A program made the position numbers and the translations under genes. The notes beneath the pieces are model-generated. The model searched no databases and was not told the origin of the DNA. It saw only the letters and a list, made by a program, of their open reading frames with translations. A DNA stretch of 64,000 nt, taken from assembly GCF_001708965.1 (NCBI RefSeq), contig NZ_LVJW01000003.1:1550001-1614000 (forward strand), in the 5' to 3' direction. Positions 34,244 to 55,009 of this stretch are shown here, one piece after another (positions within the stretch are counted from its first letter, which is position 1; each line of letters begins with the position of its first letter). Source of the stretch: Candidatus Thiodiazotropha endoloripes. GTDB lineage: Bacteria > Pseudomonadota > Gammaproteobacteria > Chromatiales > Chromatiaceae.

Positions 34244-35080
34244 ATGGCATTGGTAAACGATCATCTGGGCAGTGATGGATTCTTAGGGGTTTCCGCTTTA
34301 AAACTCGCTTCATCTCCATTTCCATTGGCGGAAAAGGAGACTCAGACCGGTGTCTCAATCAACGATAACCTCAGGTTGACCGACCAACATATTCAGGACG
34401 GCCTCTCCTGTCTCAAGCAGTTAAAGCAGGGTGCTCATCATCAGCACGTTAGCTCTGAAGAGCTTGAGAGAAAACGTATCTCCCGCGAACTTCACGATGG
34501 TCTGGGGCAGTTGCTCACCAGCATGGGCTTGCATATTCAGCGTTGTCTTGATGGATGTGATGGGCAGAAGAGTGCAACGCAGAGTCAACAGCGGGAGTCC
34601 CTGGAGGCTGTCTCATCCATGGTCAAGCAGGCGATGTCCGAAGTGAGATCGATCTGCAGTGCAATCCGTCCCGCCATTCTCGATGATCTGGGTGTCATCC
34701 CCGCAATCTCCTGGCAGTGCCGTCAGATTACCAGAGTCTGCAGCGATACCCAGGTAGTGACCGATTTTGACGTGGATGAAGAGTCGATACCCGAGGATTA
34801 CAAGAGTGTCATCTATCGCATCGTACAGGAGTCCCTGAACAATGCGGTCAAATATTCAAAGGCGAAGACCATCACGGTCTCCCTGTTGCAGGCACACGAT
34901 GCTATTCATCTGCTGATCATCGATAACGGCGTCGGATTCGATCCTTCCGAAATTCAGGGGAACCTGGGAATGGGGCTGGTCGGTATGCGTGAGCGGGCTG
35001 AGTCGGTTGATGGCAGAATCCGCATCGATACCGGCATTGATCAAGGCGTACAGATTCGCGCTTCCTTTCCTCTGCAGTAA
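34244..35080 (+). CDS. Soluble NarX/LiaS-type sensor histidine kinase without membrane domain
   Basis: A 278-residue kinase of the HisKA_3 family. The first ~70 residues have no membrane helix or recognisable sensor domain. The dimerisation helix carries H84 in RKRISRELHDGLGQL. The ATP-binding domain is complete: N-box RIVQESLNNAVKYSKA (about 192-207), G1 DNGVGFD (227-233), G2 GMGLVGMRERAE. It must receive its signal through a partner or intracellular cue. A LuxR-type response regulator faces it (convergent), and the pair precedes the giant surface protein and cupredoxin cluster. It could phosphorylate that regulator or complement the ATP-binding-deficient kinase at 55-56 kb; both are inferences. 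Confidence 0.88.
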   Translation: MALVNDHLGSDGFLGVSALKLASSPFPLAEKETQTGVSINDNLRLTDQHIQDGLSCLKQLKQGAHHQHVSSEELERKRISRELHDGLGQLLTSMGLHIQRCLDGCDGQKSATQSQQRESLEAVSSMVKQAMSEVRSICSAIRPAILDDLGVIPAISWQCRQITRVCSDTQVVTDFDVDEESIPEDYKSVIYRIVQESLNNAVKYSKAKTITVSLLQAHDAIHLLIIDNGVGFDPSEIQGNLGMGLVGMRERAESVDGRIRIDTGIDQGVQIRASFPLQ

Positions 35081-35189: not shown

Positions 35190-35852
35190 TTACCGGTTTA
35201 TCAAACCTTTCTCCAGCGCGTATGTGGTCAGCGCTGAAACATTGTGCAGGTCAAGTTTCTTCATCAGATTGGCACGATGTTTTTCAACTGTTTTGACGCT
35301 GATGCAGAGATAGTCGGCCATGCTCTTATTGGTGTGACCTTCAGCGATCAACTTCAATATTTGGCGTTCCCGTTGTGTCACCGTATCCCAGCGGGTGAGA
35401 GGTTCGTTATTGACGTTATTGGTTTGCAGATAACTGTTGACGACTTTTTCCGTGATCTCTGCGCTTAAGTAAGTTTTACCATTCAATACGCGTTCTGCTG
35501 CAGTCATTAACTCATTCTGAGTTGCATCCTTCAGAACATAACCATTGGCACCAGCTTTCAGGCTTGCCAAAACGTACTCTTCCTCATTGTGAACGGTCAA
35601 AACCAGGGTTTTGATTTCAGCATCCCGCTCTCTGATTTCGCGGATTGCATCCATGCCGTTCATGCCGGGCATATTCAGATCCATAATCACCAGATCCGGT
35701 TTGAGTTCAATCACCCGACGTATCGCATCGCGGCCATTGTCGGCTTCACCGATTACATCGAACTGGGGATTGGAGGTCAGGAGTGCTTTTAATCCTGCAC
35801 GCAGAATGTTGTGGTCTTCGGCGATGATGATTTTTTTCTTGTCGCTGTTCAT
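35190..35852 (-). CDS. NarL/FixJ-type response regulator
   Basis: A 220-residue regulator with a receiver domain (about 7-122; acidic pair ED at 12-13, phosphoacceptor D58 in VIMDLNMPGMNG, Thr and Lys switch residues in LVLTVHNEEE and VLKDA) and a LuxR-type helix-turn-helix (about 155-212; TQRERQILKLIAEGHTNKSM, ISVKTVEKHRANLMKKL). The start at 35852 is preferred since AGGTG lies just before it. It is the likely partner of the facing soluble kinase and, by position, of the cupredoxin cluster that begins 560 bases away in the opposite direction. Confidence 0.93.
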   Translation of the reverse strand: MNSDKKKIIIAEDHNILRAGLKALLTSNPQFDVIGEADNGRDAIRRVIELKPDLVIMDLNMPGMNGMDAIREIRERDAEIKTLVLTVHNEEEYVLASLKAGANGYVLKDATQNELMTAAERVLNGKTYLSAEITEKVVNSYLQTNNVNNEPLTRWDTVTQRERQILKLIAEGHTNKSMADYLCISVKTVEKHRANLMKKLDLHNVSALTTYALEKGLINR

Positions 35853-36143
35853 TGTCACCTGAGCCTATCTCATCTCTCTCTGGTTTTGTGTCCCTTGCGC
35901 ATCGATTTCCGGCTTTTACTTCAGACTAGTTTAGGTGTGATTGCAGGTGATGCAAATTTCAAACCTGTATGCCAGCACATGATGATGGAAACATGTGCTA
36001 TTCACCATGACACAAATTGTTTATTGAATAAACCACAAAAATGGCGCCGCCGCCACCGTGCAAAATCACAGATAGGCGTGGATTTTTGCGGGTCGATTGG
36101 TGAATCGATGAAAAGTCAACTTTTTGTCTGTTTTTATATGAAT

Positions 36144-36417: not shown

Positions 36418-39400
36418 ATGATAAATGAAAGTCAGGGTTACATGAACAGAGGGCTACAGTTATTTGTATTTCTGTGTCTCTCATTTCTGGTTACTGCGCT
36501 GAATGCAGCCTCATTGACCATCAATGTGGTTGATCAGTCGGGCAACCCAATCACTGATCCGAATTTCGGTTTTCGTTGGTTGCTGGAGAGGGATAACACC
36601 TTCCCGGTCGATCCGACGAATCCTGGAACAACAGCTGATGAATTACTGTCGTTGAGTTTTCACGCCAGTAATCACGAAGTCGGCGTTGCTACTGATGGAT
36701 CTGGTTCACTGTCGGGCAATGTAGATGCATCTACAGCCACGATCGGTGATGTAATCCCTGCTGGACGTTACTACGTATCAGTGCACCCCTACAGCGGTTA
36801 CAGCCTGAGTGGCGATTCTGTTGATCTGAGAAACGTAGCGGCCGGTGAGGTTACTGTCACAGTACAGCAGCATCCGATCCCCACTGCACAGATCTCGATC
36901 TATCTGTTTGAAGACAAGCATCCGGTAAATGGTGTTCCGGATCTGCCGGAAGAGCAGAATGACGGCAGCGTTGATTGGACTCAGTTCAGTCTGTTCCTGG
37001 AAGAGCCAGGCGGTCGTTACGGTGCAGCCGGTGGCCAGGTTATCCAGGATGCCTTCGGTAACTACCTCGGCACCACTTATGATCAGACCTGTGCCACCAG
37101 TAACCCGGTCGGCACTGGCGGTGATACCCCGGGTGGCATGATCAACGCCACCTGTATCGATGCTGATGGCAATCCGGTTATCGATGTGCTGGGTGACGGC
37201 ACCATGCAGCCCGATGAGAATGGCTATCTGAATGTTAAAAACCTCGCCCCCGGCAAGTATGGTGTGGTCATTATTCCACCACCCAATGCCGGTTGGCAGC
37301 AGACCAGCACCATTGAGGGCAGTAAGGTCATCGATGCCTGGGTCAAGGCTAACGAGCCTGCGGTTTTCGTCGAATTCGGTATTCCCGGTCCCCATGTCTT
37401 CATGGGTTTTGTGCGTCCTTTCGCCGATTTGCCCCCAGCCCAGCCGGGTGAGCAGGTTGCGACAGTCAGCGGTGTTGTTACCGACATGCACATGTCCCGT
37501 AACCCGGCGACCACTTTCTTCACCGGTCGTCCTTTCCCACAATGCTGGACAGCCATCAACCAGGTTGGTGTGGATGGTGCCCTTGGTCAGGCCGTCTACG
37601 CGGGTGCCTGCGGAGCGGACAGTGACTTCTCAGTGGACCTGGTTCCCCCGGGCCAGTATCAACTGGCCATTTGGGATGCCAACCTTGATGTGGTTTTTGC
37701 CTCCCTGTTGTTCACCGTGGATCCAACCGGTGGTACCTGTAACGGCGGGCTCTCCTGTAACTTCGGTGATGTGCCGGTATTCAACTGGTTCACTCGTCTC
37801 AACACCGGCATCTTCAGAGATGATGATCAGGACGGTTTCTGGGACGACGGTGAGATCGGTATCGGTCCTGAGAGTCAGGAGACCGTACTGCGCTGGCGTG
37901 ACGGTACCATCTATCAGGCCTTCCCGACTGATGGTGATGGTTTAGCACCTTTTGATGAAGTCTTCCCGTTCTTCCATTGGCTGGTGGCTGAAGTCAGCTT
38001 TGGTAATAAGAAAGCGACTGGTGCCACTTTTGTTGTGGATGCAGGTGGTGAAGTTCGTCCCGATGGCGGCTGGGCAGATCCTACTTTTGGCGAGCTCAAC
38101 CCTCAGGGACAGTGTGAGGCTCGTGGCGTAGGTCATAGCGATATCGTTATCTCGGCTACCGATCCTCGCGGTGCGATCGGCGACTGTCTCGGTTCTGATG
38201 ACGGTGGTGTAACCTGGGTTGTTGAAAACGGCCGACAGATGATCAATCCGAATACCGGTAACAATCTGTCACGCACCGAGACCGGTCTGGTGCTTACCCA
38301 GGGCTTCCAAGGCTTCCTGGGTCAGACCAGTGTGATGCAGTTCGGTAAAGTCGACTATGTGATCGATACTCCGTTCGACTTCACCGCATTCCCTCCAAGA
38401 ATTTCCGAGTATGTCGGTGAGAACGGCGGTATCTCCGGTATCGTCTACTACGCCACCACTCGTGCGGAAGATGAGCCACAGTTTGCTGCGGCCGAAGAGT
38501 GGGAGCCTGGTGTACCTCGAGTGCAACTGGCCCTCTATGCGGATGGCGATGTCAACTGTCCGCCACTCAACAACTTCCCGGGTGATCCTTGCGATATCGA
38601 CTGGAACGGCAACAACACCCAGGATCCAGACGATGGCGTGATCGAGGATATCAATGGTATTCCAGGTATTCAGCGTGCGGATGTAAACAACCATCCTGTG
38701 GATGTCTTCCCCGGACCTGAAGATGTGGATTACAACGGCAACGGTGTTTTTGACATGGGCGATGCCCTGCAGGTCACTCACACCGACAGCTGGGATGACA
38801 ATCTTCCGACCGGCTGTCAGGGAACCAATAATCCTCCTGGCGCCGAGGTTGATCCTGCGGTGGATGATCAGCGCTGTTTCGATGGCCTGCGTAACTTCAA
38901 CCAGGTTCGCGATGCACTGTTCGACGGTGGTTATGCCTTCGAAGATTACGATCTGGACCATCTGGCGTCGATTCCTGCCTCTGCCGGTTATAACGCCGCT
39001 GTTGTGGCCGCCAAGCTGACCGCTTTCTACGCTGGACTGAATACCGGTTGGCCCGAATTGAATCTTCCGGAAGCCTGGCTCATTCCTGGTGACTATCTGA
39101 TTGAATCAGCAACACCTGCGGGTTACAAGCTGGTCAGAGAGCACCATAAGAATGTGGACTACGGTGATGAGTACATCCCATCACTGCAGGCTTTCCCAGC
39201 CACCTGTGTGGGTGAGGAAGAGATGGTTCCTGAATATCTGGCCATGGCGACCAAAGATGGCAGTGGTGATGCTGCTCAGCTGATTCCAGGTGTTGAAGCC
39301 ATTGGAGCGCCTTTCGCCGGCGAAATGAGACCGCTCTGTGATCTCAAGCATGTACCGCTCTCAGCCGGTCAGAATGCGGCGGCCGAGTTCTTCCTGATGA

Positions 39401-42400
39401 CCGATGTGCCTAAAGCAGGCAACATCTCGGGTGTGATCCTCAACGACCTGGCCAACGAGTTCAATCCGAACTCACCCCAGTTCGGTGAGAAGTTCGCACC
39501 GCCTCATGTGCCGGTTGCTTTCTACGACTGGAACGGCAATGAGATCAATCGTGTCTATGCGGACAAGTATGGTCGCTACAACCTGATGGTTGCTTCGACC
39601 ACCACCGCGAATCTGCCGATGCCTTCAGGCATGTCGCCGAACATGCTGGTCTCCTGTATGAACGATGCGGGTCCGATTCCGAATTCAGAATTCACTGGTG
39701 CTCCCGGCGACGGTGTTGATGCCAGTGGTAATCCTGAGTTCATTATCGATCCAAATTTCGATACTCAGTACAGCCAGTTCTGTTACACCTTCCAGTATAT
39801 GCCGGGTACCATCACCTATCTGGATACCCCGGTTGAACCGGTCGCCGCGTTTGCCGGTCCGGACCAGTTCCCACTGGATTGTGAAGCGCCAACACAGACC
39901 CCGGCGATCTCCTCCGTACTGCGTGAGGTTGTTCCTGCCAGCGGCATCGAAGGTCCTTTCGTGGTCGCCGGTACCGGTGAGAACATCGTTATCAACTCCA
40001 AAGGTCTGACCGCTGTTCGTAACCCGGAATGGGCCAACGGTGATCCTTTAGCTGAACAGAACATCGATCGGGATTACGGTTTTGGTACCGTTGCCGGTTC
40101 GGTTCTGGTTCAGGATCGCAGCGGTAATCCTGTGGCTACTCTGGGTGTCGTATCCTGGGGTGACAACGCCATTACCGCTTCTACTGGTGGTCTGGCAGCC
40201 GGTGAATACCAACTGCTGGTAGAGCACAGCAACGGTAGTGTCTCTCCAACGGGTATCACACTGACCGTTGGTATCGCTGAAGGTGTGGGTCTTGGTAACA
40301 ACAACTCCACCTATAATGTGGTCAATGTACCAAGTGCAACCTATCCGACGATCCAGGATGCGATCGGCAGTCTGGATAACGGTCTTGGTGGTGTCAGCGC
40401 TGGTGACCTGATCATTGTCAAGCCTGGTCTCTACAATGAGATGGTGATCATGTGGAAGCCGGTCAAACTGCAGGGCTTTGGTGCAGAGACCACCATCCTC
40501 AATGCCCGCCAGACACCGACCGAGAAGATCATCGCCTGGCGTGAATTGGCTGCCGAGCTGGTTGGTACTGGTACCATCGACCAACTGCCTGGACAGCTGG
40601 TGCCCGTACCCTTCTTCGGTGGGGTTCAGGGTGCACTGGGCGCCCCGATCTTCCCAACGGAAGAGGGTGCAGGCATCATGGTTGCGGGTAAGTGGACCGG
40701 TCCTAACCGATTCCATCGTAACAACCGTAACCGCTATGCCCGTATCGATGGTCTGAGCATCATCGGCGCGAGTACCGGTGGCGGCATTGTTGCCAACGGT
40801 TACACACGCTTCCTGGTCATCTCCAACAACCGTCTGACCACCAACTCCGGTTTCTACGGTGGCGGTATCCGTATCGGTCACTCCACCCTGACCCATGAAG
40901 TTACTGGTGAGGATGATGAGTTCTTCAGACGCGGCTATAACAGCTGGCTTGAAGATCAGGCTGAAGACGGTTTCATGGCCTATGATGACGCCTTTGCCGA
41001 CAGCATGAATATCCATCATAACGAGATCATTAAGAATGGTGGATTGAATGGCGCCGGCGGTGGTATCTCTATCCATACGGGTGCCAACAACTATCGTGTT
41101 CGCAGCAACTGGATCTGCGGTAACTTCTCCAAAGGCGATGGTGCCGGTATCGGCCATCTGGGACTCTCCCGCGGTGGTCAGATCCTGGATAACACCATTA
41201 TCTTCAACGAGAGTTTCAGTCAGACACCAGGTACCAAGCCTGCCGGTGGCGGTATCTTCGTCGGCGGTCTGGCTGGACTGCGAGTCGATGAAGAGACTGG
41301 CCTGACCCTGTCTCCCGGTTCCGGTAACGTCAACATTCTCGGTAACGAGATTCGGGGCAACCTGGCCGGTGCCGGTGATGGTGGCGGTATCGCGCTGCTG
41401 AATGTCAACGGTGAGGACATCACAAAAGATCCTGATGTCTTCGGTCGCTGGTATCGGGTGATCGTTGCCAACAACATGCTGAGCAACAATGTCTCAGGTG
41501 TTGCGGGCGCTATCTCCCTGTCAGACAGTGTTAAGAGCTACATCCGTTACAACACGATTGCGAACAACGATTCCACCGCAACCGGTTCACAGGCTTTTGG
41601 TATCACTGATCCCAATCAGTCTATCGCCAAGCCGGCTGGTATCGTTGCCCGCTACCACAGTGCAACCATGATGTCCCTGATCGATGATGACGTCGCAGAA
41701 CAGTTCCCCGGTTCGCAGTTCGATGAAGACGATGTACGCAATCGTAGCGAAGAACGGATGACCTTCTCTGATCCAATCGCTCTGGTGGATAACATCGTCT
41801 ACCACAACCGCTCGTTCTACTGGCGGAATACAGACGATCCAGCCACTGTGGTCCTGGAGAACGGTCTGGTACCGGCAAGCTGTGATAACACCACCAATAC
41901 CAACTGCGATATCACAGTTGTCAACGTGGAGGATTACACCCAGGATCTGGCGGTGTTGAATGGACACACCATCAACCCGGTACATCCACAGTACGGTACG
42001 ATGTTGCTGCGCCCACTGCGTAACGTGTTACAGACCGGTTCATCTGCAATAGCCAACAATACATTTATTGAAGGCTATCTAACTGATGACGAAGATCCTC
42101 ATAACACTGGTGTTCCATTGTTTGTCAATGGCCGCTTCAATCAAGACCGTAATGCACTGCTCTTCCCAGAGTTCAAAGTGCTGCAGGTAGCGGGTGCCTT
42201 CGATGAAGGCGGTAACTTCCTGCAGGTCAACTTCGGTCCACTCTCGCTGCTTGATATCGATGGTGATACCGCAACACCGGATGGCCTTATCGATTATCAC
42301 CTCGAGGCTGGTTTATCAAATCCTGCTGTCGATGCAGCTGCCGCCTCTGCCGGTACTGGCATCTACTCGACCGACATCGATGGTGATGCAAGACCGCAAG

Positions 42401-42438
42401 GCGCCAGAACGGACGCCGGTGCCGATGAGAGGTTGTAA
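36418..42438 (+). CDS. Giant exported SdrD-like / right-handed beta-helix protein
   Basis: A 2006-residue protein with a signal peptide (hydrophobic run about 12-30 counting from 36418; an alternative ATG at 36442 removes eight residues). Many carboxypeptidase-regulatory/SdrD B-like beta-sandwich segments follow (about 35-1180), with calcium-type loops such as DDDQDGFWDDGE near 470 and DWNGNNTQDPDDG near 730. Next come an IPT/TIG-like domain (about 1165-1285), a pectate-lyase/NosD-type beta helix (about 1304-1750, starting YPTIQDAIGSLDNG) and a C-terminal DIDGDARPQG...DAGADE segment as in other surface proteins. No sorting tail or transmembrane helix is seen at the end, so release or outer-membrane secretion is unclear. 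It heads a tandem with three cupredoxin proteins and may be their scaffold; substrate unknown. Confidence 0.85.
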   Translation: MINESQGYMNRGLQLFVFLCLSFLVTALNAASLTINVVDQSGNPITDPNFGFRWLLERDNTFPVDPTNPGTTADELLSLSFHASNHEVGVATDGSGSLSGNVDASTATIGDVIPAGRYYVSVHPYSGYSLSGDSVDLRNVAAGEVTVTVQQHPIPTAQISIYLFEDKHPVNGVPDLPEEQNDGSVDWTQFSLFLEEPGGRYGAAGGQVIQDAFGNYLGTTYDQTCATSNPVGTGGDTPGGMINATCIDADGNPVIDVLGDGTMQPDENGYLNVKNLAPGKYGVVIIPPPNAGWQQTSTIEGSKVIDAWVKANEPAVFVEFGIPGPHVFMGFVRPFADLPPAQPGEQVATVSGVVTDMHMSRNPATTFFTGRPFPQCWTAINQVGVDGALGQAVYAGACGADSDFSVDLVPPGQYQLAIWDANLDVVFASLLFTVDPTGGTCNGGLSCNFGDVPVFNWFTRLNTGIFRDDDQDGFWDDGEIGIGPESQETVLRWRDGTIYQAFPTDGDGLAPFDEVFPFFHWLVAEVSFGNKKATGATFVVDAGGEVRPDGGWADPTFGELNPQGQCEARGVGHSDIVISATDPRGAIGDCLGSDDGGVTWVVENGRQMINPNTGNNLSRTETGLVLTQGFQGFLGQTSVMQFGKVDYVIDTPFDFTAFPPRISEYVGENGGISGIVYYATTRAEDEPQFAAAEEWEPGVPRVQLALYADGDVNCPPLNNFPGDPCDIDWNGNNTQDPDDGVIEDINGIPGIQRADVNNHPVDVFPGPEDVDYNGNGVFDMGDALQVTHTDSWDDNLPTGCQGTNNPPGAEVDPAVDDQRCFDGLRNFNQVRDALFDGGYAFEDYDLDHLASIPASAGYNAAVVAAKLTAFYAGLNTGWPELNLPEAWLIPGDYLIESATPAGYKLVREHHKNVDYGDEYIPSLQAFPATCVGEEEMVPEYLAMATKDGSGDAAQLIPGVEAIGAPFAGEMRPLCDLKHVPLSAGQNAAAEFFLMTDVPKAGNISGVILNDLANEFNPNSPQFGEKFAPPHVPVAFYDWNGNEINRVYADKYGRYNLMVASTTTANLPMPSGMSPNMLVSCMNDAGPIPNSEFTGAPGDGVDASGNPEFIIDPNFDTQYSQFCYTFQYMPGTITYLDTPVEPVAAFAGPDQFPLDCEAPTQTPAISSVLREVVPASGIEGPFVVAGTGENIVINSKGLTAVRNPEWANGDPLAEQNIDRDYGFGTVAGSVLVQDRSGNPVATLGVVSWGDNAITASTGGLAAGEYQLLVEHSNGSVSPTGITLTVGIAEGVGLGNNNSTYNVVNVPSATYPTIQDAIGSLDNGLGGVSAGDLIIVKPGLYNEMVIMWKPVKLQGFGAETTILNARQTPTEKIIAWRELAAELVGTGTIDQLPGQLVPVPFFGGVQGALGAPIFPTEEGAGIMVAGKWTGPNRFHRNNRNRYARIDGLSIIGASTGGGIVANGYTRFLVISNNRLTTNSGFYGGGIRIGHSTLTHEVTGEDDEFFRRGYNSWLEDQAEDGFMAYDDAFADSMNIHHNEIIKNGGLNGAGGGISIHTGANNYRVRSNWICGNFSKGDGAGIGHLGLSRGGQILDNTIIFNESFSQTPGTKPAGGGIFVGGLAGLRVDEETGLTLSPGSGNVNILGNEIRGNLAGAGDGGGIALLNVNGEDITKDPDVFGRWYRVIVANNMLSNNVSGVAGAISLSDSVKSYIRYNTIANNDSTATGSQAFGITDPNQSIAKPAGIVARYHSATMMSLIDDDVAEQFPGSQFDEDDVRNRSEERMTFSDPIALVDNIVYHNRSFYWRNTDDPATVVLENGLVPASCDNTTNTNCDITVVNVEDYTQDLAVLNGHTINPVHPQYGTMLLRPLRNVLQTGSSAIANNTFIEGYLTDDEDPHNTGVPLFVNGRFNQDRNALLFPEFKVLQVAGAFDEGGNFLQVNFGPLSLLDIDGDTATPDGLIDYHLEAGLSNPAVDAAAASAGTGIYSTDIDGDARPQGARTDAGADERL

Positions 42439-42581
42439 TCATGAAAATGATCAACACACATGCAACTGAAAAGCGCCAGCCTGTCACCATGGACAACGTC
42501 CTGGTGGCAGGGTGGAACAAACTTCGCAAACACACATCAGGTGAGTCAGGCGCTTACAAAATGACGAGGAGTAAACGCCCC

Positions 42582-43907
42582 ATGAAACTATTTAGTAAGC
42601 AAGCCCTTGCCGGAGCAATAGCCCTGGCACTGCTGGGCATCTCGGGTCAGGCCAGTGCCATTGTCAATGTACAGTGTCCTGGTGATAACAACGGTGATGC
42701 AGACTGGAATGATGCTGGCGAAGTCCAACCAGCGAATACCAAGTGTATGCACCTGATTGCAGGCGACAGTTTTGCAAAAATGTCGGACGGCAATCCCTTG
42801 TACACTTTCGGTTTCGGTGATCAGACCGGGACACCCCCCGATCAGGTGATTGGTGAAGGTATCCTCAGTGCCGAGTGGCCAGGACCTACCATCGAATTGA
42901 ATGAGGGGGATCAGTTCTTCCTTAACCTGACCAATGTCGGTACGGTGATTCGTCCCGATCTGTTCGACCCGCACACGGTCCACTTTCATGGTTTTCCGAA
43001 TGCCTCAGCAGCATTTGACGGTGTACCCGAGGTTTCGGTCAGTATCAACATGGGATCGACCCTGACCTACTACTACAACATTGTCGAGCCTGGCACCTAC
43101 CTCTACCACTGCCACGTGGAAGCCACCGAGCATATGGAGATGGGCATGTTGGCCAATCTCTATGTTCATCCAATTCAGGATGAAATTGGTTGTTTCGATT
43201 TCGGGCCAGACAACCCTGGTACCACGGAATACGATCCAGAACGAGTGGCTAATGGCAATTGTGCAGCAGCGGTAGGGGATGCGGGTTATGTCTACAATGA
43301 CAGTGACGGCACCACGGCATTTGATGTGGAGAAAGCGATCCAGCTTTCAAGCTTTGATCAGGTGTTCCACGATGCCAGTCTGTTTGTCCAGCCTCTGCCA
43401 TTTGCCCTGCTGGAAGGTAACTATCCGCAGTTTAACGGCCGCGGCTATCCCGACACAGTCAACCCCAATGCACTTCCTGCTCCTGTAGATTCGGTGGATC
43501 CAATCGCAGGCGGTACCGAGGGTAAGGTCACCGGTACGGTTGGAGAAGAGTTGACCGATGGTGCTATCACTCAGTTTCTGGGTTCCGATATCAGCGTCGA
43601 TCAGGGTGAAAAACTGCTGCTACGCCTCTCCAATGTGGGTCTGGATCGTTTCTGGACCATCACCGCGATGGGACTGACCATGAAAGTGGTCGGCACAGGC
43701 GCCAAGCACATGCGGGGAACTGACGGCAAGAATATCTATCGTGAGGTTGCCTCCTATAACTTCGGTGGTGGTGAGACAGTCGATCTGATCATCGATACCA
43801 CAGGAGTTGCCCCCGGCACCTACTTCCTCCACGCAACTGAAGTCCATCAGATGAGTAATGCGACCCAGATGGATGGTGGCATGATCACTGAGATCGTTGT
43901 CAACTGA
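42582..43907 (+). CDS. Multicopper-oxidase domain protein 1, carries type 1 copper and half of the trinuclear ligands
   Basis: A 441-residue exported protein with signal peptide ending QASA (about 26). Cupredoxin domain 1 has H131-T-V-H134-F-H136-G and H176-C177-H178 ... H184 ... M189 (YHCHVEATEHMEMGM), that is, the T1-plus-T2/T3 motifs normally found in the last domain of a multicopper oxidase. Domain 2 (about 260-441) keeps the fold (LRLSNVGLDRFWTITAMG ... GTYFLHATEVHQMSNAT) but lacks the Cys. The other two His-X-His pairs needed for a trinuclear cluster are missing here and present in the next protein. I start it at 42582, where the signal peptide begins and GAGGAG precedes by 10 bases; the frame is open back to an ATG at 42441, three bases after the giant gene's stop. 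The family is related to MofA/MnxG/OmpB-type oxidases by motif. Confidence 0.85.
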   Translation: MKLFSKQALAGAIALALLGISGQASAIVNVQCPGDNNGDADWNDAGEVQPANTKCMHLIAGDSFAKMSDGNPLYTFGFGDQTGTPPDQVIGEGILSAEWPGPTIELNEGDQFFLNLTNVGTVIRPDLFDPHTVHFHGFPNASAAFDGVPEVSVSINMGSTLTYYYNIVEPGTYLYHCHVEATEHMEMGMLANLYVHPIQDEIGCFDFGPDNPGTTEYDPERVANGNCAAAVGDAGYVYNDSDGTTAFDVEKAIQLSSFDQVFHDASLFVQPLPFALLEGNYPQFNGRGYPDTVNPNALPAPVDSVDPIAGGTEGKVTGTVGEELTDGAITQFLGSDISVDQGEKLLLRLSNVGLDRFWTITAMGLTMKVVGTGAKHMRGTDGKNIYREVASYNFGGGETVDLIIDTTGVAPGTYFLHATEVHQMSNATQMDGGMITEIVVN

Positions 43908-43934
43908 GCCTGGCCGAACTAGGAGATGAGATTA

Positions 43935-45365
43935 ATGAAACAACTACTCAAACAACCTGGACGGCTTTTGGGCCTCCTGTTTTTGGGCATGAGCAGTGCA
44001 TTGACCGTGCAGCAGGCACAGGCGGAGCACGACATTCGAGGCATCTCACAGGGTGCCAACGGTGTGTTCAACCTCTATGCCTATCCATTCAACATGAACC
44101 TGCCCGAGGGCACCAGTCTCTACATGTGGGGCTTCGGTGATCTGGATCTGGGCGAAGGCGCCTCGCATGAAGCGGGTGACAACTACCAGTTGCCACAATA
44201 CCCGGCGCCGACACTGATCGTCACCGAGGGTGAGGCGGTCACCATCAACCTGGTGAACTACGGTGTGCCGGACAATATCTCCATTGAGATGACCGGTCAT
44301 GAAGTCAGCTCTCAATGTATCGATATTCCTGCTCCTCAAGGTCCGACACCGACAACCGGTGCGACCAACTGTACAGCCGGGCTGTTTACCAACGAAGCCG
44401 ATGTGGGACAGGCTGTCAGTTACACTTTCACCGCAGGTTCTCCCGGCACCTATATCTACCACAGTCTGGCTGGTGCGAATCCCGGACTGCATACCGAAAT
44501 GGGTCTGGTGGGTGTGATGGTTGTGAGACCGGCTGATTACGATCCAATCACGAACCGGACCGCCTACGGTGCCGGTACCGGAACCGATTACGATCATGAG
44601 AATCTCTACCTGATGACCGAAGTGGATCCGGATATCCATATCCAGATGGAGAAGGGACACATCAATCACTTCACCAATACCGATCGCTACGCCAAGGTCT
44701 GGTTCATCAACGGCCGGGTCTTCCCGGATCTGTTCCAGGGTGACTACAACACCCTGTTTCCGAACCAGCCCTATGAGTCCCTGGTCATGTCAAGACCCGG
44801 TGATGTGGTCCTGGTCCGTAACGTAAATGCGGGTCAGGATGCCCATCCCATGCACTACCATGGCGAGAACCTGCGTTTCATCGGTCGTGACGGCAAGATG
44901 TTGAGCTCCGACGGTGTGGTGGCCAACCTGGGTCGCTCGGACAACACCACCAACTCAGCACCGAAACAGACTATCGATGCTCTCTGGACCTGGACTGGTA
45001 AAGACCTGGGCTGGGACATCTACGGTCACGATGCTGGACACAACTGTATCGATGTCAATCCACGTGACGGTTATGCGGATGCCAACTCGGACTATCCCGG
45101 CGAGTGGTGTAACGACCACGGCAAGCCCATTCCTGTCTCACTGCCTGGTGTGGGTGATCTGACCCTGGGTGGTTGGTGGAGTGGCAGCCCCTTCCTGGGC
45201 GACACTGGCGACCTGCCTCCTGGCGAGGGTGGTCTGAATCCCTTTGGCGGCTACTTCCTGGTATGGCACTCCCATGCTGAAAAAGAGCTGACTACCTTTG
45301 ACATCTTCCCTGGCGGAAGTCTGGGCTCAGTCGTTGTGCTGCCTCCTGGTACACCAATCAATTAA
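43935..45365 (+). CDS. Multicopper-oxidase domain protein 2, carries the complementary trinuclear ligands
   Basis: A 476-residue exported protein (signal peptide about 1-30, ending AQA). Cupredoxin domain 1 is a decayed T1 domain: the place of HCHxxxxxHxxxGM reads YHSLAGANPGLHTEMGL, without Cys. Domain 2 has A-H304-P-M-H307-Y-H309-G and W-H445-S446-H447-A-E, the two His-X-His pairs that in ordinary oxidases come from the first domain. It has no T1 Cys at all, so on its own it could not be a complete oxidase. Combined with protein 1 the full set of ligands appears. The ATG at 43935 is favoured since AGGAG lies nine bases ahead; an ATG at 43926 touches that site. Gap to protein 1 is 27 bases. 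Confidence 0.83.
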   Translation: MKQLLKQPGRLLGLLFLGMSSALTVQQAQAEHDIRGISQGANGVFNLYAYPFNMNLPEGTSLYMWGFGDLDLGEGASHEAGDNYQLPQYPAPTLIVTEGEAVTINLVNYGVPDNISIEMTGHEVSSQCIDIPAPQGPTPTTGATNCTAGLFTNEADVGQAVSYTFTAGSPGTYIYHSLAGANPGLHTEMGLVGVMVVRPADYDPITNRTAYGAGTGTDYDHENLYLMTEVDPDIHIQMEKGHINHFTNTDRYAKVWFINGRVFPDLFQGDYNTLFPNQPYESLVMSRPGDVVLVRNVNAGQDAHPMHYHGENLRFIGRDGKMLSSDGVVANLGRSDNTTNSAPKQTIDALWTWTGKDLGWDIYGHDAGHNCIDVNPRDGYADANSDYPGEWCNDHGKPIPVSLPGVGDLTLGGWWSGSPFLGDTGDLPPGEGGLNPFGGYFLVWHSHAEKELTTFDIFPGGSLGSVVVLPPGTPIN

Positions 45366-45381: not shown

Positions 45382-48300
45382 ATGAAAAGGTCTACTACCA
45401 TGAAGCAAACAATGAAACCCATCGTAGTCGCCTGTGCCTTGGCTTTAGGCGCCGGTCAGGCGAATGCATTGGATGTCTATCTCATTGCAAAAGAGTTCAC
45501 CCAGGACCTGCCCGGTGTTGCGGCAGTGGATGATCCCACCATGTGGGGTTATGCACTGGATCCGGCCGGTGCTTGTTACAATGGCGGCGCACCCGATGTG
45601 CTCGGTGCAGCCTGTACCGGCCCAGCGGCAAGTGCTCCAGGCCCACGGATCACCATCGATCCAACAGATCCTGTGTTGAACATCTACCTGACCAACATGC
45701 TCACCGAAGAGACATCCATTGTGGTGCCCGGTCAGCCGTTGCCTCACTCTGGCGGTGCCATGGGGCCCACCTGGAATGACGGTACTACCGGCAGTCGCGG
45801 CGGCAACATGACGTTGAAGATGCGTTCTTACGGTGTGGAAGCGGCCCCCGGCGGTACTCAGGTCTACACATGGGATGCATCCAACCCAATCGACGATAGC
45901 GGATCGTTCATCTACCACACCGGTACCACACCACAGAAGCAGCTCTACATGGGCCTCTATGGTGCTGCTACCAAGGATGCTGCTGTCGGCAATGTACTTT
46001 ACGATCTGGACGGTACCGTAGGTAACGCAGATGATGTGACCTACGCCAACGAACTGATCCTTTTCTACAGTGACATCGATACGCACTTCAATGCAGAAGT
46101 CGCTGCGGGAACTTTGCAAACCGCGATCGAACGCCATCCTCAATGGTATATGATCAACGGTCAGCCCTATCAGGCTGGTTTTCCAGACATCCAGACAGGT
46201 GAGGGTGGTCTGCCGTTGACAACTTCCGGGCCAACCCTGTTGCGCTTCGTTAGTGCGGCAACTGAAAAGCATGTGTCTGTTCTGCAGGGCCTCTACGGCA
46301 CCATTCATGCTGAGGACGGAATTCAGTATACCTACGAAGATGATACCGGCGTACATGCCGCACCGGTTGAGCAGTATTCTATTGGTCTGCCTCCGCTGAA
46401 AACCAAGGATGTCATCATACAGCCCACCTTCAGTGGTCGTTATGCGATCTATGACGGCAACGGCAACATGACCAACCCGAGTGATCCTGAAGACTTCAAT
46501 CAGGGTGATGAGATCGGTGGCATGCTGCGCTTCCTTGGCTTCAATGTCGGCGCAAACCAACCGCCGATTGCCAATACTGATCCAGTCACTATCCAGATTC
46601 CTGAAGTGTACAATCAACCCACCTATCAGGTACTGGATCAAGTCATTGATGTACTGGCCAATGATATGGACCCGGATGTTGGCGATACACTGGCATTGGT
46701 TGATAGTGTTCTGTTTCCTCTTGATACCTCAATTGCTGATGTCTCGATCAGCTTCGTATGTTCCAGTGTGGACGCCAACTGTACGTTAACCCTGGATAAT
46801 TCACTGATCCCAGCATCGACGGGTGGCGGCAATACTCAGCTCACCTATGAGGTAACTGCTGGTGGAGTAACTGTTCCGGGCACAGTTGATGTCACAGTGG
46901 AAGTTAATAGTGCTCCTATCTTAGCTACCACACCACAGGTTGTGATTACCACAGATGATTTGGTGGCAGATGTAGCAACAATCAATCTGGCGGATCTGGT
47001 GGCGGATGCTACTGATGCAACGGCTGGTGATACGGTAAACGTATCCTTCGTTGACATCGCACCTGTGCCGTCAACAACTGCAACCCTGGTGGGTTGTGAC
47101 TACGGGGCAGGTACCTGCAGCATCAGCTTTGTTGGCACTCCTGCACCAGCCCAGTTGAACCTGGATTTCACCATGACCGACGGCTTGAACTTGGTCGAAG
47201 GTCAGACTGCAACGGTCTCCCTGGCCTTCCCTGGACCAACGCTGTTTGATGATGCAACCACGCTGGATCAGATCGGAACGCTGGATCTCGATGCCAATGA
47301 TGTCAATCTGCCCGCCACCTATGGTCTGGCGCTTGCTTCAGCACCGACTGCCGGTGGTACGGCGACTGTAGAAGACGACGGTACGTTTACCTATACCCCA
47401 CCGGCAGGAACTTTTGCCGGGGATAGCTTCACCTACTGTCTGACCGCTGCACCTTTGGATGACACCTGTCTGGCAACTCCGCCTGCAGCAACCGTTACCA
47501 TCGATCCTACTCCGGCCTCCGGATTGATCGCTGTCGGTGGCAAGACCTACACGACCGATGAGGATGCAGTCCTCGATGTGCTCGCGGCCAACGGTCTGTT
47601 GATCGGTGAATCGCCCATCAATGGCGGTACTCTGGCGGTAGTCGTGGATAGCGCACCTACCTGTGCCAACACCGTGGCTGGCAGCTTCACCTACGACGGT
47701 ACGACTGGTGAATTCCACTACGAGCCTCTGTTGGATTGGAACAGTGTCAATCCTCCAGTGGATGATGGGGACGCCTGTACGCTGAATGACACTGCGGGTG
47801 CAAGAGGTGCCGATACGATCGTCTACCATCTGGAAGAGACCTACTTCGATGGCACCAATACGGTAACCATCAGCAGTAACACGGTGACCGCTGAGATCAC
47901 TGTCAATCCGGTCAATGATGCACCGGTGGCTGTGAACGATACCTTCTATGTTCAGGATGCCTCTACAGCTGTATTGGATGGACAAGGTGAGCCAATATCC
48001 ATGACCTTCAGTGTTGCAGCAGCTGGGGTTCTCGGGAACGATACCGATCTTGAGAATGACGGCCTGCTGGCAACCGAAGTGAATGATCCTGGCAACCTGG
48101 ATCCTGCACTGGGTATCGATGGTTCCATGCCAAGCTTTGCTATCGATCCTACAGCGGTCGGTATTCTGACCAGTGTGGAGTATGAGGCAAGCGATCTCAT
48201 GGCTCAGAGCAACATCGCTACTGCTGATATCGTACGTCAGGTCTCGGTTACCCGTGCCTCCTATCTGCAACGCGGTACTGCGGGTCCCGGCAATGACAGA

Positions 48301-48624
48301 TGGCGCCTCAGAGGTGTGGTTGACACGACAATCCCAACCACGGGTACTGCACAGGGCGTACGGGTCTACCTGGTACGGGTCAATATCAACGGGACACCAT
48401 CCCCACGGGTTGAGATCGTACCCACAGCGACTGGCAATAATAATGGTCGTATCCGGTCCGTCGGCGGACAACATGTCTGGGGTATCAATGTCAACGGTGT
48501 TGGCAACAACAGACCAGAAGTTGAATTGCCAGATGGCAATGACTATCTGGAAATCGAGGTGGTTGATTTACCCACCTACCCAGAGGCTGTCTACAACAAC
48601 GTACCATTTGATATCGAGCCATAG
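45382..48624 (+). CDS. Exported protein with two degenerate cupredoxin domains and cadherin/VCBS-like repeats
   Basis: A 1080-residue protein with a signal peptide (ending GQANA). Residues about 30-390 look like two cupredoxin domains without copper ligands: where the T1 loop would be, the text reads FIYHTGTTPQKQLYMGL. From about 391 (NQPPIANTDP) it continues as four or five Ig-like units of the cadherin/VCBS type (VIDVLANDMDPDVGDTL, VNDAPVAVNDTFYV, GVLGNDTDLENDG). The end (about 975-1080) is a beta-rich domain starting with RWRLRGVVDTTIPTTGT that I do not recognise. It follows protein 2 by 16 bases with a GGGAGG ribosome site. With proteins 1 and 2 it would bring the number of cupredoxin domains to six, as in MnxG or ceruloplasmin. 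Confidence 0.75.
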   Translation: MKRSTTMKQTMKPIVVACALALGAGQANALDVYLIAKEFTQDLPGVAAVDDPTMWGYALDPAGACYNGGAPDVLGAACTGPAASAPGPRITIDPTDPVLNIYLTNMLTEETSIVVPGQPLPHSGGAMGPTWNDGTTGSRGGNMTLKMRSYGVEAAPGGTQVYTWDASNPIDDSGSFIYHTGTTPQKQLYMGLYGAATKDAAVGNVLYDLDGTVGNADDVTYANELILFYSDIDTHFNAEVAAGTLQTAIERHPQWYMINGQPYQAGFPDIQTGEGGLPLTTSGPTLLRFVSAATEKHVSVLQGLYGTIHAEDGIQYTYEDDTGVHAAPVEQYSIGLPPLKTKDVIIQPTFSGRYAIYDGNGNMTNPSDPEDFNQGDEIGGMLRFLGFNVGANQPPIANTDPVTIQIPEVYNQPTYQVLDQVIDVLANDMDPDVGDTLALVDSVLFPLDTSIADVSISFVCSSVDANCTLTLDNSLIPASTGGGNTQLTYEVTAGGVTVPGTVDVTVEVNSAPILATTPQVVITTDDLVADVATINLADLVADATDATAGDTVNVSFVDIAPVPSTTATLVGCDYGAGTCSISFVGTPAPAQLNLDFTMTDGLNLVEGQTATVSLAFPGPTLFDDATTLDQIGTLDLDANDVNLPATYGLALASAPTAGGTATVEDDGTFTYTPPAGTFAGDSFTYCLTAAPLDDTCLATPPAATVTIDPTPASGLIAVGGKTYTTDEDAVLDVLAANGLLIGESPINGGTLAVVVDSAPTCANTVAGSFTYDGTTGEFHYEPLLDWNSVNPPVDDGDACTLNDTAGARGADTIVYHLEETYFDGTNTVTISSNTVTAEITVNPVNDAPVAVNDTFYVQDASTAVLDGQGEPISMTFSVAAAGVLGNDTDLENDGLLATEVNDPGNLDPALGIDGSMPSFAIDPTAVGILTSVEYEASDLMAQSNIATADIVRQVSVTRASYLQRGTAGPGNDRWRLRGVVDTTIPTTGTAQGVRVYLVRVNINGTPSPRVEIVPTATGNNNGRIRSVGGQHVWGINVNGVGNNRPEVELPDGNDYLEIEVVDLPTYPEAVYNNVPFDIEP

Positions 48625-48645
48625 TTAGTATCATGGCGTGAGGCA

Positions 48646-48676
48646 CCGCCCCCTGTACTGCAGGGGGCGGATTTTT
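48646..48676 (+). terminator. Strong intrinsic terminator after the cupredoxin cluster
   Basis: CCGCCCCCTG and CAGGGGGCGG form a perfect 10-bp stem around TACTG and are followed by ATTTTT. It lies 21 bases past the stop of the third cupredoxin protein and marks the end of the giant-protein/cupredoxin transcript. Confidence 0.9.
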
Positions 48677-48718
48677 GTTAAGATCAATCGTCAAACGACA
48701 CAATTCCTGGGTAGTATC

Positions 48719-49312
48719 ATGAAAAGTTCTCACTTTTCCGAAAAAGCGCCTGAGGATGAAAAGGAGAGGCATCCCGGAGGCAATCCACTGCTGGTAATTC
48801 TGGTCCTGGTGATCTGCACCACGGCCTTTCTTGCATTCACTGCATCGGTCGCCAAGGCGGATAGTAAAACCGCAGTGCAGACCGCAGAGCAGGCGACCCC
48901 CAAGCCCTGGAAACCGCCTGTAGCCGTGCCGACAGTTCCCAAACCCCCGGTGGATAAGGAGACCGCCAAGCAAATCGCTGAAAAATGGGGTATTGAGCTA
49001 CTCAGTCTGCGACTTACCGCAGCCGGCTACATGATCGATTTCAGATTTAAGGTACTGGATATCGAGAAAGCCAAGATTTTTTTCGACAGTCGCATCAAAC
49101 CGCACCTCAAAGTCGAGAAATCTAATGCTAAACTACCTATACCCATGGCGGCCAAGGTCGGTGCCTTCAGACCAACCAACCGGGGTATGAACATCAAGTC
49201 CAATAAGACCTATTACATGGTATTTGGCAATCCTGATGCCCATGTGAAATCGGGAGAAAAAGTAACAATGGTGATCGGCGACTTTAAAGCTGAAAATTTA
49301 ACAGTCAACTGA
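48719..49312 (+). CDS. Membrane-anchored periplasmic protein of unknown function
   Basis: A 197-residue protein with an N-terminal cytoplasmic tail of about 20 residues, a membrane helix (about 25-42), a Pro-rich linker (about 56-78), and a compact C-terminal domain (about 80-197) beginning KWGIELLSLRLTAAGYMIDF and ending with NKTYYMVFGNPDAHVKSGEK and VTMVIGDFKAENLTV. The domain looks like a conserved beta-sandwich that I believe recurs near copper or cytochrome genes in other bacteria, but I cannot name it. The ATG at 48719 is used because the upstream in-frame start lies within the terminator. It is likely co-transcribed with the Calx-beta gene 22 bases downstream. Confidence 0.75.
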   Translation: MKSSHFSEKAPEDEKERHPGGNPLLVILVLVICTTAFLAFTASVAKADSKTAVQTAEQATPKPWKPPVAVPTVPKPPVDKETAKQIAEKWGIELLSLRLTAAGYMIDFRFKVLDIEKAKIFFDSRIKPHLKVEKSNAKLPIPMAAKVGAFRPTNRGMNIKSNKTYYMVFGNPDAHVKSGEKVTMVIGDFKAENLTVN

Positions 49313-52577: not shown

Positions 52578-53378
52578 ATGGATAAAAGAGCATGGAATAA
52601 CGGTTCGGTTGAAAAGTGTCTCAGGGGCATGCTAATGGCATCTGTGCTTTCTGTTGCCATGTTTGTCACAGCGGGCGTTAGTGCCGCTGATCTGCCAAGC
52701 ATTGTGAAATCCAACGGTGGTGAAACCCTTGGGCCACAGTTCAAGCTCGATTGCGTCACCCGACCGGGCAAACCTCAAAACCATGCTGATCGGTTCAAAG
52801 TTGCCATGAACATGCATGACCATTCCCAGCATGGTGGCCATGATGAACATGCTCATCACCGTGCGATGATGGAGAACAAGTCGTACAAGGTAAATCATGC
52901 CAGCTATCAGCTGCCGGATGTGAAGTTGATCTCTCACAAAGGGGAGCAACTGCAGTTGGCGGATATTCTGAACAATGACAAACCGGTGATGCTGAACTTC
53001 ATCTTCACAACCTGTACCACCATCTGCCCGGTTCTTTCGGCCAGTTTTCATCAAGTACAGCAGATACTGGGTGATGAGGTTGACACTGTTTCCATGGTAT
53101 CGATCACCATCGATCCGGACTATGATACGCCTGAACAGTTGATGAAATATTCGAAACGATTCAAGGCGGGTGAGCAATGGAATTTTTATACCGGCAGCTA
53201 CAATGATGTGGTTACCGTAGAGAAGGCTTTTGATATCTTCCGTGGTTCAAAAATGAATCATGAACCGATTACCCTGATCAGGGATCAAGGTGGACAGCAC
53301 TGGACGCGTATCAATGGTCTGGCCAGCGCAGAAGATATTGTCAAGGAGTACAAAAAGATCGTATCGGCTGCAAATTGA
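52578..53378 (+). CDS. SCO1/SenC-family copper chaperone
   Basis: A 266-residue exported protein (signal peptide about 1-37). The SCO fold carries the copper-binding CXXXC as FTTCTTICPVLS (C146, C150), the segment SITIDPDYDTPEQLMKY and a His (H228) in SKMNHEPITLI that fits the third copper ligand. Before the fold lies an unusual His/Met-rich stretch (about 77-98, MNMHDHSQHGGHDEHAHHR) that could bind further copper. SCO proteins load copper into periplasmic enzymes, usually the CuA site of cytochrome oxidase. No oxidase is encoded nearby, so the multicopper proteins upstream are the obvious clients. The stop overlaps the next gene's start codon by one base. Confidence 0.9.
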   Translation: MDKRAWNNGSVEKCLRGMLMASVLSVAMFVTAGVSAADLPSIVKSNGGETLGPQFKLDCVTRPGKPQNHADRFKVAMNMHDHSQHGGHDEHAHHRAMMENKSYKVNHASYQLPDVKLISHKGEQLQLADILNNDKPVMLNFIFTTCTTICPVLSASFHQVQQILGDEVDTVSMVSITIDPDYDTPEQLMKYSKRFKAGEQWNFYTGSYNDVVTVEKAFDIFRGSKMNHEPITLIRDQGGQHWTRINGLASAEDIVKEYKKIVSAAN

Positions 53379-55009
53379 TGCTAAAACTCAACAAAATGAT
53401 CACGGCGATTACACTATTCGCCGGCTTGATCCTATTCTCTACAACCTCGCAAAATGAAGTTGAGGTTGACTCCAAGGCCTACGCAAACGGCAAATCACTC
53501 TACAAACAGGGCATTCTGCCGAATGGCGAACTGGTAAAGGCAACCATTCAGGGCGATATTTCGGTGGAAGGGAATCAATTGATCTGTGAGACCTGTCACC
53601 GCAAGAGCGGCCTGGGCTCAACCGAAGGCCAGCAGGTGGTCCCGGCGGTCGCAGGCAGTGTGCTTTTCAAACCCCTGAAACTGCCCACCAGCAAACCCCC
53701 TGAGCCGCCGGTATATCGTGAAGCCTATACCCGTGAGACCTTGATGGCGGCGGTCAGGGATGGTGTGGATGCCAATGGCCAGCCACTGGATCCATTCATG
53801 CCAAGATATCAGATCGACGATGAGGCGCTGGATGGCTTAATGGCCTATGTCAGTACACTCTCCAATACCCCGTCCCCAGGTGTGGACGAAAAGACCATCC
53901 ATTTCGCAACCATTGTCTTATCCTCGAACAAAGCGGAGGAGAACAAGGCACTGGTCGATGTCATGGCGACCTATGTCGAGCAGAAGAACATTGAAACCAG
54001 ATATGAGTCTAAACGGGCGAAAAATGCCCCTTGGCATAAGGAGTGGATGTTCAAGCCCTATCGAAAATGGCAGATACATGTTTGGGAACTGACAGGTGCC
54101 GAAGAGACCTGGCCGGATCAGCTCAGTACATACTATACAAAACAGCCGGTATTCGCGCTGGTAAACGGTTTGGTACCAACCGGCTGGAATCGGGTCAGTG
54201 AGTTCTGTGAAGGGCATGCGATACCCTGTCTTTTCCCCACCACACAACAGCCGGTTATCAGTGATGAAAACTACTACACCATCTATCTGAACAAGGGTGT
54301 GGCACATGAGTCTGAAGCGGTTGCCTCCTATATCCGGAAAAACCGCCCCGCCGCCCGAGTCGTACAGATTCATGATCAATCTGACATGCTGAGCTCCATA
54401 TCTTCCAATGCGCTCATTGATGAGCTGAATAAGGCGGGCATCAGCGTAGACACCGTTTCTCTGGGGCAACTTGGCGAAAAAGAATCGAGCGCTTTTCGGA
54501 TTGGCAAAGACGATACGGTTGTATTGTGGCTGGATAGAGGCAAATCAGAGCAACTCTTCAACAGTGGTCAGCTTAACAGTGCAGAGTTGATCATGCTCTC
54601 CAGTCAGTATTACGGCACAGACACCAGGCTTATCCCCCCGGATTTGACAGATTCAGTTCTCTTCATTCACAGCGCTGAAATGCCCGATAAGCTGAACAGG
54701 CTGCTGATCCGCTCAACGGGTTGGTTCAGAGCAAAAAGAATCTATAATAAAGAGACCAGAGAGATTCAAGCCAATGCCTACTTCGCGCTAAAGGTGCTTG
54801 GCGATGCAGTGAAGCATATTCGTGGCTACTTCTATCGCGACTATATGATTGAAAAGATTGAACATATGATTGATGACTTGCCTTATACTTCGATCTTCCC
54901 ACGCCTCAGTATGGCGCCGGATCAAAGGTTTGCATCACGTGGGTTCTATGTGGCTAAAACTGACGGCAAAGGAGGAATCGTTAATCTCACTGGTTGGATA
55001 GCTCCCTGA
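53378..55009 (+). CDS. Cytochrome c fused to a periplasmic ligand-binding domain
   Basis: A 543-residue exported protein. After a signal peptide (about 1-24) comes a monohaem cytochrome c domain (about 30-160) with C70-E-T-C73-H74, later DGVDANGQPLDPFMPRYQI that may hold the axial Met, and DEALDGLMAYVSTL. The rest (about 165-543) resembles the two-lobed type I periplasmic binding fold of ABC substrate-binding or amino-acid receptor proteins (HFATIVLSSNKAEENKALV, NYYTIYLNKGVAHESEAVA, ELIMLSSQYYGTDTRLIPPD). There is no transporter nearby. It starts with ATG overlapping the SCO stop (TGATG) and precedes a membrane kinase, so I infer a redox- or ligand-responsive sensor input or an electron acceptor for the oxidase. 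Confidence 0.75.
   Translation: MLKLNKMITAITLFAGLILFSTTSQNEVEVDSKAYANGKSLYKQGILPNGELVKATIQGDISVEGNQLICETCHRKSGLGSTEGQQVVPAVAGSVLFKPLKLPTSKPPEPPVYREAYTRETLMAAVRDGVDANGQPLDPFMPRYQIDDEALDGLMAYVSTLSNTPSPGVDEKTIHFATIVLSSNKAEENKALVDVMATYVEQKNIETRYESKRAKNAPWHKEWMFKPYRKWQIHVWELTGAEETWPDQLSTYYTKQPVFALVNGLVPTGWNRVSEFCEGHAIPCLFPTTQQPVISDENYYTIYLNKGVAHESEAVASYIRKNRPAARVVQIHDQSDMLSSISSNALIDELNKAGISVDTVSLGQLGEKESSAFRIGKDDTVVLWLDRGKSEQLFNSGQLNSAELIMLSSQYYGTDTRLIPPDLTDSVLFIHSAEMPDKLNRLLIRSTGWFRAKRIYNKETREIQANAYFALKVLGDAVKHIRGYFYRDYMIEKIEHMIDDLPYTSIFPRLSMAPDQRFASRGFYVAKTDGKGGIVNLTGWIAP

Follow-up and report, generated by a model that had tools for sequence, protein, structure and literature searches.

Two adjacent genes of Candidatus Thiodiazotropha endoloripes, here called A and B, encode proteins that divide between them the copper ligands of a multicopper oxidase. 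They lie in a stretch of 64,000 nucleotides (contig NZ_LVJW01000003.1, positions 1,550,001 to 1,614,000), which is referred to as the window and whose numbering is used throughout. The division of ligands is real at the sequence level and is conserved, and one copper site shared by two polypeptides is the reading that the sequences support best. A third gene, C, follows them. We consider it likely that A, B and C form a secreted heterotrimer with one active site, located at the interface between domain 1 of A and domain 2 of B. This explanation builds on the observed partition of the ligands, its conservation, the gene order, the absence of A-B fusions in the loci analyzed and the homology of the chains with type C two-domain oxidases.

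Partition of the copper ligands and its conservation

The two genes and their ligand motifs are as follows.

42582..43907, plus strand: subunit A, two cupredoxin domains, putative Sec-type signal peptide (by inspection)
42972..42992, plus strand: A motif HTVHFHG, with H131 assigned to the type 1 site and H134 and H136 to the trinuclear cluster; aligns to HTIHWHG in domain 1 of 3g5w
43107..43148, plus strand: A motif HCHVEATEHMEMGM, with H176 and H178 assigned to the trinuclear cluster and C177, H184 and M189 to the type 1 site; aligns to HCHVNVNEHVTMRGM in domain 1 of 3g5w
43935..45365, plus strand: subunit B, two cupredoxin domains, putative Sec-type signal peptide (by inspection)
44844..44864, plus strand: B motif HPMHYHG, with H307 and H309 assigned to the trinuclear cluster and H304 likewise invariant; aligns to HAIHTHG in domain 2 of 3g5w
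45267..45275, plus strand: B motif HSH (WHSH), with H445 and H447 assigned to the trinuclear cluster and Ser at the place of the type 1 Cys; aligns to HDH in domain 2 of 2zwn

The reading frame of A is open from 42441 to 43907 and that of B opens at 43926; starts at 42582 and 43935 are favored by sequences resembling ribosome-binding sites. Residues of the A motifs are counted from Met 42582 as 1, one higher than in the P0001 numbering, which is kept for the other conserved residues of A (C31, C54, H56 and H262); residues of B follow the P0002 numbering. In Pfam, PF07732, PF07731 and PF00394 score above cut-off in A, and PF07732 and PF07731 do so in B.

Domain 1 of A holds the type 1 site and four trinuclear His, and its domain 2 is without ligands. 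Domain 1 of B is ligand-free, and its domain 2 holds the remaining four trinuclear His. The original prediction, made from this DNA without database searches, had described H131-x2-H134-x-H136 and HCH...H...GM in A, and HPMHYH and HSH without a Cys ligand in B. All of these motifs were recovered, those of A at the positions listed above. It had also proposed that neither chain is complete by itself and that the two sum to a full set, and the motif positions and alignments bear this out: the type 1 set and eight trinuclear His that make a multicopper oxidase are found only in A plus B, distributed over two chains.

We searched the Protein Data Bank (PDB) with profiles of A and of B. The top match for both (E value 1.9e-19 for A and 3.9e-19 for B) was 3g5w, a blue copper oxidase of Nitrosomonas europaea, followed by the metagenome laccase 2zwn; we call both enzymes type C from their motifs. 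The A motifs fall on domain 1 and the B motifs on domain 2 of these proteins, and A and B thus divide the ligand set of one chain, with the alignment of the B motif HSH to HDH of 2zwn as the weak piece (3.2 bits). Domain 2 of A and domain 1 of B align to the same single-chain oxidase, with the ligands replaced. According to the available part of a published account, two-domain oxidases draw the ligands of each cluster from two protomers of a trimer, and those whose type 1 site lies in the N-terminal domain are classed as type C (PMC13151041). Like 3g5w and 2zwn, A has the type 1 motif in domain 1 and not in domain 2. However, both halves are present in every chain of the type C proteins, which are trimers of one chain; the alignments agree here with the earlier statement that known two-domain oxidases keep both halves together. 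In the window the halves are on A, which lacks the His of domain 2, and on B, which lacks the ligands of domain 1, and neither is on C. The sequences argue for a heterotrimer, a predicted assembly, rather than a type C homotrimer. Copper nitrite reductase (NirK) was considered and rejected, as TIGR02376 gave 29.5 bits with A and 24.5 bits with B against a cut-off of 296.3.

Relatives were collected by scanning contigs with two A peptide patterns containing HCH and HxHG, and the best 80 of 470 were analyzed (loci are given L numbers). Among them are several phyla, with Candidatus Thiodiazotropha, tubeworm symbionts, Thiobacillus, Rhodoferax, Gallionellaceae, Methylocaldum, Desulfobulbus, Desulfosarcina, Nitrospirae and Acidobacteria. 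A was present in all 80 loci, B in 79 and C in 74, and the six loci short of B or of a full C all stop at contig edges. B lies downstream of A in 79 of 80 loci, the remaining one ending at a contig edge, and the order A-B-C on one strand holds in 74 of the 74 loci with all three genes. With the window included, all eight A ligands are invariant (81/81 rows), partly by construction because the scan patterns contain the HCH and HxHG of A. The invariance of B is unaffected by this: H304, H307 and H309 are conserved in 80/80 rows, and H445 and H447 in all 76 rows with letters at these positions, 4 of the 80 being gapped. This invariance across relatives rules out chance motifs.

Few other His or Cys are conserved at 85% or more, namely C31, C54, H56 (only partly conserved) and H262 in A, and H235, C371 and H395 in B. 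C31 and C54, near the mature N-terminus of A, are invariant (81/81) and possibly form a disulfide. Beyond the first domain, one His that is not among the expected copper ligands is invariant in both A (H262, 81/81) and B (H235, 80/80).

The survey of homologues that had been suggested with the original prediction found no fusion of A with B, nor of B with C or A with C, among the open reading frames (ORFs) of the 80 loci; nine ORFs flagged by two models were B, matched by the C model across the same span. B looks broken in three of the 80 loci (L059, L094 and L116), and L059 (9986-13918) has an additional fragmented copy beside the broken B. Among 274 genomes of the same class, A occurred in 7 at E ≤9e-40 and B in the same 7 at E ≤3.1e-37. 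At E 1e-10 the numbers rose to 30 for A and 8 for B, the extras being shorter local matches. The order A-B-C was also found in 9 further loci of those 7 genomes. C meets a contig end in L031, L033 and L034.

In the genome that contains the window, PF07732 occurs at four places, in A, in B and twice in an oxidase of 661 amino acids, and PF07731 adds an oxidase of 876 amino acids; they are located on contig C3 of the genome near 1665449 and near 914370, respectively. Both were rejected as partners of A or B because each carries four His motifs in one chain. It had been pointed out that a third chain completing each half would speak against a shared site; no other oxidase found in this genome supplies the missing half. 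Because the two ligand sets are complementary, A and B co-occur and are adjacent, no other oxidase found in the genome completes either, and no fusion was seen, a single site shared by A and B is the best-supported interpretation.

Protein C and the predicted ring

The pair first described was right as to the coordinates of A and B but missed a third cupredoxin chain, C, at 45382-48624. It and the large protein encoded on the other side of A are as follows.

45382..48624, plus strand: subunit C, two cupredoxin domains lacking ligands in roughly the first 390 residues, then Big_9/cadherin-like repeats
36418..42438, plus strand: large secreted scaffold of 2006 amino acids; matches to SdrD_B and choice-of-anchor Q are weak and below cut-off

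C begins with a putative Sec-type signal peptide, again by inspection. The window C gives no oxidase hit in Pfam and is placed in the superfamily through its homology to B (window B against C of L031, 29% identity, E 3e-16). No His or Cys is conserved at 85% or more among 75 rows of C; in a smaller alignment, one His column of domain 2 is held by at least seven of nine rows. The C frame of L076 and L085 is short, at 332 and 339 amino acids, and lacks the repeats. Neighbors were counted in the 49 of 80 loci with more than 8 kb on either side of A, and the scaffold stands beside A-B-C in all 49. C is fused to the scaffold in L035-L037 and probably in L141 (Cupriavidus metallidurans CH34) and L142 (Paraburkholderia), with frames of 2708 and 2744 amino acids. 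In L100 (3206-11218) and L102 (1173-8540) the scaffold is in one frame with A instead. These fusions link A, C and the scaffold.

As the three genes of L076 (Desulfobulbus) share a frame, this stretch could be folded as one chain. It was translated with stops as Ser (1169 amino acids) and folded by AlphaFold2, using an alignment of 84 further rows chosen from 156, whose motif columns agree except for one row at HCH. The model has a mean predicted local distance difference test score (pLDDT) of 84.8 and a predicted template modeling score (pTM) of 0.86, and pLDDT falls below 50 only at two linkers, one short loop and the C-terminus. The one-chain oxidase 6vow matches model residues 23-829 (375 of 409 residues at 2.5 Å), from domain 1 of A to the last strand of domain 2 of B, and 6tfo also spans A and B (residues 129-834, 268 residues, 3.4 Å). 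In Foldseek, the Thermus laccase 2xu9 reached a target template modeling (TM) score of 0.71, and ceruloplasmin aligned along all domains, but with a TM score of 0.2 and at 34 Å. Single chains of the model mostly match two-domain oxidases and nitrite reductases, among the matches listed. We infer from these matches a ring order A-C-B, in which domain 2 of B would adjoin domain 1 of A. A viral fold library gave nothing useful.

A read-through of A and B of the window (900 amino acids, 60 rows) was folded in the same way and gave a pTM of only 0.50. The prediction of a split interface thus holds for A-B-C of a relative, L076, but not for A and B of the window when modeled alone. The original prediction had envisaged a hetero-oligomer of two chains. 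A cluster held across chains is supported, but a dimer of A and B is probably wrong, and a ring of A, B and C is favored because C is found in each locus that is long enough and because of the pTM values of the two models.

The preferred explanation would run as follows. A, B and C may be three diverged copies of a type C-like two-domain oxidase, whose homotrimer would have become an obligate heterotrimer. The three chains would be exported, loaded with copper, probably with the help of an SCO1 protein encoded nearby, and closed into a ring of six cupredoxin domains. Only one of its three interfaces would be live, where domain 1 of A, with the type 1 copper and four His, faces domain 2 of B with the other four. 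A donor would be oxidized at the type 1 copper of A, and electrons would pass through His-Cys-His to the cluster held by A and B, where O2 would be reduced to water. C would be copper-free, close the ring and anchor the enzyme on the surface scaffold. Electrons would probably come from a donor outside the cell, for which Fe(II) or some other reduced metal or mineral is tentatively the most likely candidate.

Several observations weigh against this explanation. All 50 matches listed for the A-B model of the window lie within B, and none spans A and B. The good model is that of a relative, and its chains are connected by read-through stops and signal peptides, a construction that may favor compact packing; AlphaFold2 may also recall known cupredoxin rings. 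Most of the structure matches listed for the L076 model stay within one chain, 6tfd and 2dv6 span A and B only at about 14 Å, and the argument from 6vow uses the first and last aligned residues, the root mean square deviation and the length. Pairwise identities of A and B correlate at 0.93, but those of A with C and B with C do so at 0.87, and shared ancestry alone would yield such values. The role as a metal oxidase is drawn from how a syntenic cluster is expressed in a single iron oxidizer, as reported in the available text of PMC12016527.

A second split family and alternative explanations

Weaker matches led to a second split pair, in which the order is reversed (B' then A') and each protein has about 340 amino acids. 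Domain 2 of B' has HFH and H[NT]H-type motifs, and domain 1 of A' has HTIHLHG and HCHVHTVKHLEMGM-like motifs. Examples are as follows; the family also includes L151-L162.

L150, 8276-10349, plus strand: B'-A' pair
L038, 8258-10286, minus strand: B'-A' pair
L039, 7477-9370, plus strand: B'-A' pair

With A' of L150 as query, 15 of 274 genomes gave matches at E ≤1e-15. A B'-like gene lies directly upstream of A' in 11 of the 12 loci opened, and in L160 the stretch contains a second A'. By pattern search, the B'-like genes have an HxHG motif in 8 of 11 cases and a second HxH in 4 of 11; the ligand set of B' was not established in L155, L158 and L159. No third chain was present within the 14 to 20 kb read around B'-A' at three loci. 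We built a tree from 57 selected chains (11 loci each for A, B and C, 8 loci each for A' and B', and 8 one-chain oxidases). A, B, C, A', B' and the one-chain oxidases each fall on one side of a branch, with bootstrap 100 and 95-100 in the Shimodaira-Hasegawa-like approximate likelihood ratio test. The grouping of A with A' is weakly supported (88/60), and the tree is therefore compatible with either one or two origins of the split.

This second family bears on the main competitor of the three-chain ring, in which A and B alone would form the site, as dimers or an alternating hexamer, and C would be a surface anchor or an unrelated cupredoxin. Such an arrangement agrees with the restriction of ligands to A and B and with split pairs that have no third chain in the stretches read. 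It is nevertheless improbable, as C is homologous to B and follows it in every complete locus, and as A-B was not confidently packed whereas A-B-C was, a comparison blurred by different species and alignments. Less probable still is that A is a blue copper carrier, or a metal oxidase acting through type 1 copper alone; B would then store copper or act as a scaffold, and a trinuclear cluster would not form. In its favor, no structure or assay was found; against it, the eight trinuclear His are invariant across several phyla in exactly the four motifs of type C, and a plain blue copper site would not retain H134, H136, H176 and H178 of A nor the four His of B.

Two further possibilities are very unlikely. 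The chains could be decayed remnants of a duplicated two-domain oxidase, since complementary loss by drift is the expected start of neutral partition after duplication and B is apparently broken in a few loci; however, the same partition recurs in Gamma-, Beta- and Deltaproteobacteria, Nitrospirae and Acidobacteria, and A, B and C each hold together in the tree. A homotrimer of A or of B with three complete sites would follow known two-domain oxidases, described as homotrimers with inter-protomer clusters in the available text of PMC13151041, but outside the motifs A conserves no His except H262 and, in part, H56, and B none except H235 and H395, so that an interface of either chain alone has four of the eight trinuclear His.

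With the A-B-C heterotrimer thus preferred, a broader proposal, about as likely as not, is that three-gene, pseudo-threefold heterotrimers of this kind are widespread, form a natural multi-chain counterpart of ceruloplasmin and act as mineral-facing oxidases tethered by C to a cell-surface scaffold, with the B'-A' family showing that splitting over two genes is a general option.

Neighboring genes and known systems

The window contains the following additional neighbors, with counts from the 49 loci defined above.

48638..49312, plus strand: small conserved protein with no Pfam family, near A-B-C in 48/49 loci
52578..53378, plus strand: SCO1/SenC copper chaperone, candidate copper loader; similar gene in 29/49 loci
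53375..55009, plus strand: cytochrome c and periplasmic-binding-like protein; similar gene in 27/49 loci
34244..35080, plus strand: histidine kinase adjoining the cluster
35190..35858, minus strand: LuxR-type response regulator; similar one in 24/49 loci

A Calx-beta protein is also among the neighbors of A-B-C. Ahead of its SCO1 domain, the SCO1-like protein carries the His-rich stretch MHDHSQHGGHDEHAHH, perhaps a copper-binding arm. A fixed association of A-B-C with the SCO1 and cytochrome genes is not evident, since 19 of the 49 loci have neither within reach.

The gene cluster is already in print, but we did not find the split site or the dead third subunit described. Literature searches for split or heteromeric oxidases or tandem oxidase genes, covering mostly titles and the openings of abstracts and few subscription journals, gave no description of a site built from two genes among the hits listed. 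In Sideroxydans lithotrophicus ES-1, Slit_1812-1818 encode three cupredoxin proteins, SCO1, a predicted cytochrome and small proteins, and are expressed more highly in late magnetite than in Fe(II)-citrate cultures; similar clusters are listed for Paraburkholderia, Ralstonia and Anaeromyxobacter (PMC12016527, available text). Two of the chains are said there to have canonical oxidase motifs, and the third is larger and motif-free, with adhesin- and lyase-like domains. Compared by description, the tandem oxidase genes Slit_1816-1818 have the same make-up and neighbors as A-B-C, which, together with the Paraburkholderia locus L142, suggests that the ES-1 cluster is the A-B-C cluster. In the available text of the two ES-1 papers the motifs are called canonical, with no remark on complementary halves (PMC12016527, PMC5566968).

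Few metal sites have been studied as thoroughly as the trinuclear copper cluster, whose two halves are encoded by one gene in the known classes compared. If our explanation is correct, A-B-C shows a route from homotrimers to single-site rings like that of ceruloplasmin, accounts for an apparent lack of activity that members of such clusters may show when expressed singly, and provides a defined target for those extracellular oxidases of iron-oxidizing and symbiotic bacteria that await identification. It also corrects annotation, in which the chains score as ordinary oxidase domain proteins or stay hypothetical, as in Paraburkholderia.

Among known metal oxidases, OmpB/MofA systems have an SCO1 gene (OmpB) and MofC-like genes nearby, as here, and the protein encoded at 53375..55009 resembles the MofC-like proteins, as far as these are described in the available text (PMC5566968). 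The predicted architecture resembles that of the six-domain oxidases, i.e., ceruloplasmin, MnxG and bacterial relatives, which have six cupredoxin domains and at most one trinuclear site, located in bacteria between domains 2 and 3 (PMC3600357, available text). The L076 model and its structure matches are compatible with such a pseudo-threefold ring with one trinuclear cluster. The six-domain oxidases are formed by one chain, whereas the ring predicted here would be assembled from three. The position of the type 1 site also differs: it is in the first, odd-numbered domain here, whereas, according to the same source, ceruloplasmin has it in domains 2, 4 and 6 and the bacterial six-domain oxidases have it in domain 2.

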